Shown: positions 34,592-37,571 of the stretch, piece after piece
Layout of the letters: the number at the start of each line of letters is the position of its first letter
Position numbering within the stretch: the first letter of the stretch is position 1
Origin: Tepidisphaeraceae bacterium
GTDB lineage: Bacteria; Planctomycetota; Phycisphaerae; Tepidisphaerales; Tepidisphaeraceae
Direction of reading: 5' to 3'
DNA length: 40,220 nt
NCBI GenBank assembly: GCA_035998445.1
Contig: DASYHQ010000036.1
Coordinates: forward strand, 1-40,220
Position numbers and translations under genes: made by a program
Notes under the pieces: model-generated
Told to the model about the DNA's origin: nothing
What the model saw: only the letters and a program-made list of their open reading frames with translations
The model's database searches: none

Positions 34592-34674
34592 TAGGGTAAG
34601 CTGTGGCTCGAAGCTCTTCCGTTAGCTGCCGATGTGTCGGCGCGGTGCCGGCCAGTGAACGTTGGTCTGTTGAT
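34592..34674 (+). repeat. attC-like cassette site 1
   Basis: It shares GGGTAAGCTG, CGGCGCGGTGCCGGCC and AACGTTG...GTTGATG with the sites near 36.7, 37.15 and 37.5 kb, and contains a small hairpin GCCGATGTGTCGGC. The last core-like heptamer overlaps the ATG of the next gene. Diverged and less palindromic than sites 3 and 4. Confidence 0.4.
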
Positions 34675-34978
34675 GTGCGGGACAATGCGACAGGACGTTC
34701 CAAGATGCCAGTCATGTGGAATCCCGTACGTGTCGGGCGCGCTGCTAGACGCTTCGACCTGGGCGCGAGCTCGCCAAATGGGTTTCCGACGTTGTCTCGC
34801 GTTCCCCTACGAGTGGTTCATCGCGGACGAACGAACGCTTCGGCGGCACCGGCCCGACGAGGTCATCACGCCCCAGAACTGCGACAGTGTTTACGTGGAT
34901 TCGATGATTCAGTCGCACCCGACCTGCCCAAAGTGCGGGGATTCGATCTACGCGCGCGGCGAGTCGGCCGTACACTAG
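34673..34978 (+). CDS. Small zinc-ribbon-type protein, cassette-borne
   Basis: A 101-residue protein. Two cysteine pairs, CQSC near the start and CPKC near the end, could hold one zinc ion. Between them lies an aromatic-rich region (ARARQMGFRRCLAFPYEWFIADERTLRRH). No family is recognised. The ATG at 34673 is chosen because it lies directly at the core of the preceding attC-like site and only 8 codons before the first Cys; a GTG at 34634 would add 13 residues encoded by the repeat itself. Its stop falls at the edge of the next attC-like site, the arrangement of integron cassettes. Confidence 0.6.
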   Translation: MCGTMRQDVPRCQSCGIPYVSGALLDASTWARARQMGFRRCLAFPYEWFIADERTLRRHRPDEVITPQNCDSVYVDSMIQSHPTCPKCGDSIYARGESAVH

Positions 34979-35021
34979 CGTCGTAGCCGACCTGCCGGCC
35001 GGGAATGATGATCCGTTATTT
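34973..35021 (+). repeat. attC-like cassette site 2 (short, degenerate)
   Basis: It runs from the stop codon region (CACTAGC) to GATCCGTTATTT. The end matches the end of site 4 (GATCCGTTAT) and the middle holds CTGCCGGCCGGG. It is shorter than the others and may have lost one arm. Confidence 0.3.
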
Positions 35022-35423
35022 ACCGATGCGCCTTTCCCCGCGCCGCATAACCCGCCACTATGAAGGCTCTTCCGTCAACCGGTAAATCTCCTTCGCCGGA
35101 CGGCTCGGTCTCGGTGGCGGTTACAGGTCGCGGCGGGTGAGGTCAGACCACTATTCAAGGTCACGGGCCCTCCTGTCTGACGATGCGGGCCCGGCCTTAT
35201 TCAACTTTGCAAAGCCTGGTTGACTCATTCCAAATGGCGGCGTGGCGAGCACGCGTTGAACGTGATCGGCGCCCGCGGATTATTCGAGTTTGGCCAGGGT
35301 GCTCACTCATCTCGCTGCGATGTCGTCGCGCCGTCGATTCGATGCCGTCTGGCTTCGTTAACTGTCGTTCGCTCTTCGCTCGTCGCTCTTCGCTCGTCGT
35401 TCTTCGTTCCCGTGTCGGCTGCG
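35022..35423. other. Non-coding stretch with a 14-bp tandem repeat
   Basis: No convincing gene is seen. A 19-codon frame (MRLSPRRITRHYEG) follows site 2. At 35370-35409 the unit CGCTCTTCGCTCGT occurs twice exactly and a third time in the diverged form CGTTCTTCGTTC, just outside the end of the decayed IS110 transposase. Confidence 0.6.
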
Positions 35424-36565
35424 TCAGGCGGGGGTGGCCAGCGTGGGGACGTCGCGGGCGTCATCCCATCGCGCCTCATCCCGCAGCAACGCCCAGCACC
35501 AGACCAGCAGCTTGCGGGCCAGGGCGACGGCCGCCTGCTTGCGGCGCGTCCGCTGGCCGTGGCACAGGCGGTCGAAGACCTCCTTGCCACGCGTGCCCTC
35601 CCTGCGCGACAGGCCCCACGCGGCCTGCCGCCAGCACGCGGCGCAGCAGGCCCGGGCCCTGGCCGGTGATGCGGCCCAGGCGGTTCATCTGGCCGGACTG
35701 GTACTGCTTGGGCACCAGCCCGGCGTAGCAGCTGACCTGCTTGGCGGTCTTGAACCGCCTGGCGTCGTCGAGCGTGGCCACCACCAGCTCGGCCAGGCGG
35801 GGGCCGACCTGCGGGATCGTCCGCAGGCGCGTCACCCGTTCCTCGCCCGAGGCGATTGTGTCGAGCTTTCTGTCCGCTTCCCGGATCAGCGTCGTCACCT
35901 GCTCGAACATCGTCAGCTCCGAGGCCAGCTGGCCACGCCACAGGTTCGCCTCATCGCGCTCGCTCAGGGGACGCGACAACGCCTTGAACTCGTTGATCGC
36001 TTGGGCCGTCCACCCGCGCGAGCGGCCGGGCAGGCTCAACCCCTGGGCATCGAGCAGGCTGCGGATCGTGTTCTTGATCCCCGTCCGCCGGTCGACCAGC
36101 GCGTGGCGGTACCGGATCAAGCTGCGGCGCTGGCGGACCGGCCGCTCGGGGACGTGCACGGTCGGCAGCTGGTCGCTCGCAGCGAGCTTTGCCAGCTTCA
36201 ACGCGTCGTCGCGGTCGGTCTTGCGCTTGACCTTCGTCCACCGCCACGCCTCGCCCAGCGTGTTGGCCGCGGACCTCGACCGACAGCGTCTGGGCCAGGT
36301 CGGCGATCCAGCCGCCGATGCTGCACGCCTCGATGACCAGCATCGCCGGCGACGCGTCGACCAGCAGGTCTTGCACGGGCGACGGGTTCGTGGCGATCGT
36401 CTCGAACGCGTGCGTGCCCGTGGCCGGGTCGTAGCGCCAGGCCACGCTCTTGAACTTGCCCAGGTCGACGGCCAGGATCGGCGGCGTCGGCGTCGGCGTC
36501 GGCGTCGGCGTCGGCGTCGTCGTCGCGATTGCGGTCGGCGTCATCGTCGAAGTACGATTGCTCAT
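35424..36565 (-). pseudogene. IS110-family transposase, two frameshifts
   Basis: An IS110-type transposase of about 380 residues spread over three frames. The first (from 36565) has the RuvC-like start ILAVDLGKFKSVAW and AMLVIEACSIGGWIADLAQ. A shift near 36277 leads to NTLGEAWRWTKVKRKTDRDDALKLAKLA. Then come RSLIRYRHALVDRRTGIKNTIR and the transposase_20 region LRTIPQVGPRLAELVVATLDD, CYAGLVPKQYQSGQMNRLGRITGQG. A second shift near 35628 leads to RREGTRGKEVFDRLCHGQ and the stop at 35424. The N-terminus carries a Pro-Thr tract from a GGCGTC microsatellite. It interrupts the cassette array between sites 2 and 3. Inactive if the shifts are real. Confidence 0.88.
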
Positions 36566-36667
36566 GGCGGGCCTCCTTTGCGGTTGCGGGTCGTCTCCAC
36601 CGATTGAGGCCCTGCGCCCCGTGCGCAGGTGACCTCGCCAAACACCGTAACCTCGGCGGAGCCCGCC

Positions 36668-36773
36668 TTACATAGTTTCCAATGCACCGGACCGGGCCGG
36701 CGGTATAGTTTCTGTTGGTCGAGGGCGGCACGGTGCCGGCCCGGCCGGTGATCGGCACTACGTTATACGGCAG
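36668..36773 (+). repeat. attC-like cassette site 3
   Basis: The arms at 36686-36702 (CACCGGACCGGGCCGGC) and 36735-36750 are complementary over 16 bp, with one unpaired A in the left arm. An extrahelical base of this kind is a hallmark of attC sites. The site ends in ACGTTATACGG, 3 bases before the ATG of the next gene. The middle holds the shared GGTCGAGGGCGG and CGGTGCCGGC blocks. Confidence 0.6.
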
Positions 36774-36775
36774 CC

Positions 36776-37117
36776 ATGAGCTTCTCGTACCGAACAGTCA
36801 CGCAGTCCGCGCGGGTTCTCGCCAATTTGACCGGCGTACCCGATTTGTTCATTGACGCGCCCCTTCAACGGAACAATCGCAAGAGCGACATTTGGTATTT
36901 CGGGTCGGACGAACTGTGGACGCCGCTTGGCTTTCCTCTCCAGATTTCAGCAACGATCGGCCCTGAGAACTCGCTGCAAGTCTGGTCTGCTCAGACAAAG
37001 CTGTTAGAGGTTGGCATCGTTGACCTCAGCATTTACGCAGAGCTCTGGCTTCCGACGGACGAGAGGTTGACGGTCTGGACGGAAGAGCGTCGCGCGGCAT
37101 CCGCGACTGCCGGATAA
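36776..37117 (+). CDS. Small protein of unknown function, cassette-borne
   Basis: A 113-residue product without a recognised family. It lacks a signal peptide or membrane segment. The body is mixed alpha/beta with aromatic residues (SDIWYFGSDELWTPLGFPLQISATIG; DLSIYAELWLPTDERLTVWTEERRA). The gene lies snugly between attC-like sites 3 and 4. The ATG is 3 bases after site 3, and the TAA stop is part of the first core heptamer of site 4 (GGATAAC). Such tight packing and lack of homologues is typical of integron cassette genes. Confidence 0.65.
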   Translation: MSFSYRTVTQSARVLANLTGVPDLFIDAPLQRNNRKSDIWYFGSDELWTPLGFPLQISATIGPENSLQVWSAQTKLLEVGIVDLSIYAELWLPTDERLTVWTEERRAASATAG

Positions 37118-37212
37118 CCACGCACTGGAACGGACCGACCGGGTGGAACGGTCCTTGTGATTCTGAGTGGCGCGGTGCCCGGCCGGCCCGTTGAACGTTG
37201 ATCCGTTATGCC
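37112..37212 (+). repeat. attC-like cassette site 4
   Basis: The site starts GGATAAC, overlapping the previous stop codon, and ends CCGTTATGCC; the two ends are near-complementary (GATAAC/GTTATG). Inner arms AACGGACCGACCGGG (37129-37143) and CCCGGCCGGCCCGTT (37178-37192) pair at 13 of 15 positions. The centre carries the shared GGCGCGGTGCC block. This is the clearest attC-like site of the series. Confidence 0.6.
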
Positions 37213-37298
37213 TCACGAGACTCCACGTCGCTCGATCGAAACCACGGCTCACCGTTTCAAGCGGAAGAAGCTGATCGTCTGGGCCGTTCGTCAGTCAA

Positions 37299-37475
37299 TT
37301 GATAAACGTCGCTCTCGCGATATGGCTGTTCCCAAAGTATCCGTGGCTTTGGTGGACGCTGGTCATCGTGATTCCGCTGGCACTGTTCTCGCTCTATCAG
37401 ATCCGCCGACTAGAGCAGATCGCCGAGAAAGGCGCGGAGGTTGACGATCTCTTGCACCGAATCGGTGAGGCATAA
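37299..37475 (+). CDS. Small single-pass membrane protein, cassette-borne
   Basis: A 58-codon frame starting from a TTG reads as a membrane protein. A hydrophobic segment (ALAIWLFPKYPWLWWTLVIVIPLALFSLY) is followed by a positive Arg-Arg and an amphipathic helix (RRLEQIAEKGAEVDDLLHRIGEA). This is far more protein-like than the alternative frame from the ATG at 37208. The start is uncertain, since no ATG is available in frame after the TGA at 37272. Its TAA stop forms part of the GCATAAC heptamer of the following attC-like site. Short membrane proteins are common in integron cassettes. Confidence 0.55.
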   Translation: MINVALAIWLFPKYPWLWWTLVIVIPLALFSLYQIRRLEQIAEKGAEVDDLLHRIGEA

Positions 37476-37571
37476 CCTGCCCATGCACCGACCGTGCCGG
37501 CGGGTAAGCTGCTGGTGGTTCGAGAGTCGGTGTGGTGCCGGCGAGACCACTGACCAGCGCAACGTTAGCCG
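37470..37571 (+). repeat. attC-like cassette site 5
   Basis: It begins GCATAAC across the previous stop codon and ends AACGTTAGCC. Inside, CACCGAC (left) pairs with GTCGGTG (right), and the middle has GGGTAAGCTG and GGTGCCGGC as in sites 1 and 3. The arms are less regular than in sites 3 and 4. Confidence 0.5.

Follow-up and report, generated by a model that had tools for sequence, protein, structure and literature searches.

Positions 34592 to 37571 of a contig from a Tepidisphaeraceae bacterium (DASYHQ010000036.1, here C36) carry imperfect palindromes between small genes. The window analysed is the entire contig of 40,220 bp, from a draft genome of 5.84 Mb that is 95.5% complete in 64 contigs. 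With a probability of roughly 0.9, the region is a small, decaying cluster of attC sites lacking an integron-integrase (CALIN) that derives from a planctomycete chromosomal integron of Phycisphaerae type, and one of its attC sites was later split by an insertion sequence (IS). The sites have the anatomy of attC, their stems covary, genes end within them, they are arranged in arrays, in relatives sites of this class adjoin intI and attI, and the genome has attI heads elsewhere. These features bear out the CALIN interpretation of a preliminary description made from the letters alone; recombination by the integrase, IntI, and the origin of the array by IntI insertion or rearrangement are what we infer from them. 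That description had counted five related palindromic sites, numbered here 1 to 5 from left to right. Three attC stand (36669-36769, 37111-37212 and 37469-37571), while the other two sites are decayed pieces.

A scan for the outer boxes and inner stem, run on stretches of the genome, found about ten sites of 99-102 nt with the layout R″ (NNATAAC), inner arm, loop, inner arm and R′ (GTTATNN), and there were 0 matches in the control, 1.16 Mb of block-shuffled sequence. For an alignment of 11 sites (A1) RNAalifold gave 24 pairs, nine of them with compensatory changes. The covariance model R1 was built from sites of the genome itself, two of its training sites being sites 4 and 5 of the window, whereas 36669-36769 was not among them. 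In a window search with filters off, R1 matched site 4 (37111-37212) with 86.0 bits (E 1.6e-24), site 3 (36669-36769) with 80.6 bits and site 5 (37469-37571) with 57.9 bits (E 1.1e-15), the remaining matches, reverse-strand echoes aside, reaching at most 11 bits. All three attC are about 100 nt long and on the plus strand, and they lie within 1 kb. The attC covariance-model search of the genome that had been proposed beforehand was made with R1, the model built in this analysis, and it yields 34 sites at E<=1e-6, some in arrays and some single; the longest array, with six sites, is at C39:1531-4777.

Among 18 other genomes of the family, seven have 11-25 sites each by R1, and there are none in 12 genomes of other families. 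Under the R1 structure 92.6% of cells are paired in 44 distinct sites from the relatives; double changes number 130, where shuffles give 53 +/- 8, and when the structure is slid along these sites the pairing falls to 23-45%. An unpaired A is present in the 5′ arm of 41 of the 44 and a constant G in 43, neither being part of a pair. Complementary R″ and R′ outer boxes, an imperfect covarying inner stem and unpaired 5′-arm bases are the architecture of attC. Bottom-strand folds of single sequences compared with shuffles gave z values of -2.8, -1.2 and +0.6 for sites 3, 4 and 5; sites 3 and 4 are the two whose folding had been suggested in advance, and only the fold of site 3 beats all shuffles, with part of its stem being the end of the IS. 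Single-site folds are weak evidence and are not used as proof: it is the comparative evidence that decides. An Rfam search of the region gave no relevant match.

The association with gene ends extends beyond the window. Across the genome, 16 of 30 sites have within R″ the TAA stop of an open reading frame (ORF) of >=60 aa, compared with 17 of 98 ATAAC motifs outside attC, which is three times the background of 17% (Fisher p=2e-4) and sustains the earlier claim that the stop codon of the gene lies in the heptamer. The cassette genes are small and diverse, and three of the ten scanned fall in known families (DUF4240, SUKH/SMI1_KNR4 and DUF6985). Cassette gene B of the window (36776-37117, plus strand; 113 aa, with no Pfam family) has its stop codon within the R″ of site 4. 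Together with its attC it has a 79% identical copy at C39:1592-2074 which stands behind an attC of another subtype, as would be expected if cassettes are mobile. That the palindromes are dispersed repeats of the REP (repetitive extragenic palindromic) or MITE (miniature inverted-repeat transposable element) kind, unrelated to integrons, might be thought of since attC-like sites are scattered singly as well as arrayed. Yet this is barely credible: apart from the stop codons, the sites of each array (C39, C59 and C36) are in one orientation, the inner stems covary, and the linkage of this attC class to intI and attI in relatives and the attI boundary described below largely refute it. The outcome that the preliminary description had set against itself, with attC models giving no matches and repeats unrelated to gene boundaries, is thus the reverse of what is seen with R1.

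The boundary between attI and the first cassette can be read directly in this genome. C41:247879-248161 and C7:118921-119203 have a common head of 283 bp, 99.3% identical, that comprises intI codons 1-47 and attI. Both heads end ...TAGTAGTTATGC, the homology stopping at GTTATGC, after which the two are wholly different: C41 goes on with a DUF4240 gene as its first cassette and C7 with an unknown gene, and each has an attC of its own. A common head followed by different cassettes after GTTATGC is what attI-attC recombination predicts, and a divergence at exactly that point is not what dispersed repeats would give. The two heads may belong to separate loci of one genome or to two strains in the bin. 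Four relatives in the family have a full intI. In G013, a relative assembled as a single contig, intI (6021297-6022262, minus strand) is divergent from ...GGTAGTTATGC, which is followed by a first cassette and an attC of the window class; attI lies between intI and the first cassette, as at the C41 and C7 heads, and the boundary letters are identical. In another relative, G005, intI and two attC on its contig C3 have a matching arrangement. Partial copies of attI away from intI were seen at C39 4323-4362 (98% identical to the C41 head over 40 bp), C59:42175-42270 (75%) and C7:114236-114339 (86%). That on C59 heads an attC array, and that on C39 is inside the cassette array, directly 5′ of a cassette, in a manner that recalls the delta-attI arrangements known from class 1 and 2 integrons (PMC12901181).

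Neither intI nor attI occurs anywhere on C36, and so the candidate that the window array is headed by attI was rejected. The earlier statement that no IntI gene lies in the window is right for the window only, as the genome keeps its attI heads and a fragment of intI. What remains of intI is codons 1-73 on C5 and codons 1-47 on C7 and C41. The C5 frame is family-like for 73 codons, and then departs from the family and stops. A full intI was not found in the assembly and neither was C-terminal IntI sequence, apart from Xer-like genes; these and the other tyrosine recombinases of the genome score far under the IntI cut-off. Near the end of C5 (positions 1180-1430 of the stretch examined) the truncated intI is adjoined by an array of short units, nearly identical to one another (TTTTCGCGCACACGAAATTCA and the like).

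The fragmentary nature of the assembly gives some room for the array being part of a complete chromosomal integron whose intact intI the draft lacks or truncates, with the array served in trans or in cis. C5, C41 and C7 share exactly 141 bp at their ends, within intI codons 1-47, and this common node implies that the intI head exists in more than one copy or allele; the completeness estimate, the number of contigs and the relatives with full intI are also compatible with it. However, C36 extends 33 kb to the left of the array and ~2.6 kb to the right without attI or intI, so there is no adjoining integrase on the assembled side, and the want of C-terminal IntI beyond the Xer-like genes and the early end of the C5 frame point the same way. 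An intact integrase behind the array is accordingly considered unlikely, though it deserves to be kept in mind, and the array is treated here as a CALIN.

The gap between sites 2 and 3 is an IS of ~1.6 kb (35057-36678, minus strand) of IS1111/IS110 type, which the preliminary description had missed. Its ends, read directly, are the subterminal inverted repeats ACTATGAAGGC and ACTATGTAAGGC; the first directly follows an R″ box with its spacer, GCATAACCCGCC (35045-35056), which is the left part of the interrupted attC, and the right part follows at 36679-36769 with the R′ box CGTTATAC. If the flanks (35045-35056 and 36681 onward) are put together, the result is an uninterrupted attC like that at C39:3587; over 88 bp the right part by itself has 93-95% identity to C39:3598 and to the attC that comes first in the G013 integron. 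A 2-bp repeat, CC, possibly flanks the IS. Sites 2 and 3 are therefore not separate sites, but two halves of one attC. Site 2 was described as a palindrome and does not fold as one (shuffles fold as well as its bottom strand does, z=-0.11); it consists of a degenerate R′ remnant (~35010-35019) and the R″ half that is continued in site 3. As to site 3, its right part is the strong R1 match already given, but it has no R″ of its own and the letters TACATAGTTT there, which form part of the stem, are the end of the inserted IS.

The transposase gene of the IS (35430-36565, minus strand, the low end approximate) is of the IS110 family. PF02371 is found on 35479-36198 with E=9e-18; the intact transposase of a G013 element has both PF01548 and PF02371. 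Three-frame translation has the window transposase spread over three frames, meaning that it is broken, a pseudogene, or misassembled. Downstream of it is a long non-coding part (35057-35429, minus strand, the high end approximate), and this layout, with subterminal inverted repeats, is that of IS1111, where the non-coding region is usually in this position (PMC11187229). It includes a block with ACTATTC that is conserved in the elements of relatives, and by analogy with known elements it is a candidate guide-RNA (seekRNA) region. A 7-nt identity to the target, ACCCGCC, in the non-coding part is not claimed as a guide match, as such a length may be due to chance.

This is one of eight IS insertions in three genomes, all 5-6 bp 3′ of R″ and in one orientation, with left junctions CATAACCCGCC followed by ACTATG or the equivalent. 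Besides the window, window-type left ends are at C7, C23 and one locus of RYN_431 ('Phycisphaerales bacterium isolate RYN_431', to whose record the family relative G002 is identical at one place), and related elements are in G013 (two), at C20 and in RYN_431 (one). Both junctions were read at four loci (the window, G013 twice and C20), the far side being the rest of the attC, which at C20 is decayed and without a clear R′. When 26 family genomes were searched for the IS left end with one mismatch allowed there were 15 matches: 11 are chance ones lacking the conserved downstream block, and all four genuine window-type copies are in attC. A transposase search of genome contigs gave seven loci only. 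A more distant relative (L130, JAIOPV010000084.1) has an IS110-type transposase that is 42% identical, with weak attC-like sites of another subtype around it; other IS lineages may use attC in another way, L130 apparently having inserted on the R′ side.

Instead of repeated targeting, the fixed position could reflect a few insertions copied along with their attC, by array duplication or shared descent. Only three genomes are involved, and common insertions may be the source of the C7, C23 and RYN_431 copies with the window-type left end. Against copying as the general explanation, two greatly different IS types, with transposases ~43-46% identical, use the one attC position, the interrupted attC are of different subtypes, and the cassettes 5′ of R″ differ between loci, all of which make it rather improbable. 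Repeated targeting being preferred, we would tentatively entertain, at somewhat less than even odds, that IS1111/IS110 lineages of Phycisphaerae set an RNA guide of their own to the R″-L″ spacer independently of the proteobacterial group, that attC is a recurrent, convergent landing pad for guide-RNA transposons, and that this together with intI loss has left cassette arrays fixed and scattered over the chromosome.

Several considerations weigh against the reading of the region as an IS-split, decaying CALIN with attC-targeted insertion. Recombination was not observed, and the array is short with its outer parts decayed. R1 was trained on the genome's own sites, two from the window, and the alignment behind the pair counts was fitted to R1 and is hence biased towards it, the effect of the slide control being large all the same. 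The left junction is the only one read at C7, at C23 and at one locus of RYN_431, the eight insertions stem from just three genomes, a more distant IS relative (L129) shows no attC, and L130 sits elsewhere, near the R′ side of a different type of attC.

By analogy with known integrons each cassette would be one small gene and one attC, and the substrate of IntI would be the bottom strand of attC in folded form, as in characterised integrons (PMC11023631), to be joined to attI, another attC or a secondary site. Insertion at attG sites is attributed to Loot et al. 2024 in PMC12444791, and attC far from attI, here and in G013, may have been placed at secondary sites by IntI or be displaced pieces of arrays. 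An IS1111/IS110-type element later split one attC, its site probably picked by RNA from the non-coding region as with ISKpn4 and ISPst6. The split attC should then stop recombining, which would fix that cassette in place, and intI loss combined with IS insertion into attC would leave the window array as a whole fixed.

Integrons, CALINs, planctomycete attC sites and attC-targeting IS1111 elements have all been described before; the additions here are the present class of attC, the attI heads that belong to it and a Phycisphaerae IS lineage that repeatedly uses attC. CALIN, as defined for IntegronFinder (PMC9024848), suits the window with its three same-orientation attC, small cassette genes and no intI nearby, though an IS splits one attC and there are attI heads and a fragment of intI elsewhere in the genome. 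The preliminary description called planctomycete arrays poorly described; an attC model for Planctomycetes has been published (PMC8352920). With sedentary chromosomal integrons having planctomycete attC there is likeness in phylum and in attC folding, and G013 has a full intI-attI-array; the differences are that no intact intI is assembled here and that the cassettes are in many short arrays and single sites. Of the IS1111 elements that target attC (ISKpn4, ISPst6, ISPa25 and ISPa21; PMC11187229, PMC11616780), ISKpn4 and ISPst6 are guided by RNA from the non-coding region downstream of the transposase (PMC11187229). The present elements share with them the DEDD transposase family, the subterminal inverted repeats, the long non-coding region downstream of tnp and an insertion point at one end of attC with the orientation fixed, whereas the intact G013 transposase is only ~30% identical to the listed proteobacterial plasmid elements; it is 45% identical to one from Acaryochloris. 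For a little-sampled planctomycete family this documents an integron lineage and its attC class, the attI heads allowing the cassette boundary to be read off directly. It also shows attC serving repeatedly as a landing site for IS110/IS1111 elements remote from those of Proteobacteria, which would offer natural guide/target pairs for testing how such RNA-guided transposases change targets.

The outer parts of the window array are less well preserved. Site 1 was put forward as one of the palindromes, at 34592-34680, where R1 finds none at E<=5; only the right half of an attC is kept (34636-34671, plus strand), with CTGTTGAT in place of the R′ CCGTTAT and 94% identity over 36 bp to C39:1593-1628, in the right half of the attC at C39:1531-1633. 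Cassette gene A (34634-34978, plus strand) is known from its ORF and translation, with <=114 aa and an uncertain start. It has two CxxC pairs and is zinc-ribbon-like, and its Pfam matches are to zinc fingers only, all sub-threshold. Cassette C (37209-37475, plus strand) is a small membrane-type frame of 58 aa from a TTG, with an uncertain start and possibly frameshifted, which ends within the R″ of site 5. Just right of that last attC another decayed right half (GCCGGCCGCTGAACGGAAACTCGTTCTTTAC, window 37571-37610) was read by eye, and a short frame at 37615-37754 has the motif CGYDLRATSARCPECG, of which a near-identical form, CGYDLRATPLQCPECG, ends the first cassette gene of the G013 integron.

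Other repeats were seen in passing. On C50, ~21-bp tandem units (~9519-9680 of stretch L040), each ending CCGTTATGC, are like isolated R′ boxes and are not attC. A palindromic repeat (GTCCGC...GCGGACCCTAC) occupies positions 1-141 of stretches of both C39 (L034) and C57 (L126), a contig end common to the two, and it recurs within the C39 array at ~4230-4322 of L034, beside the partial attI.

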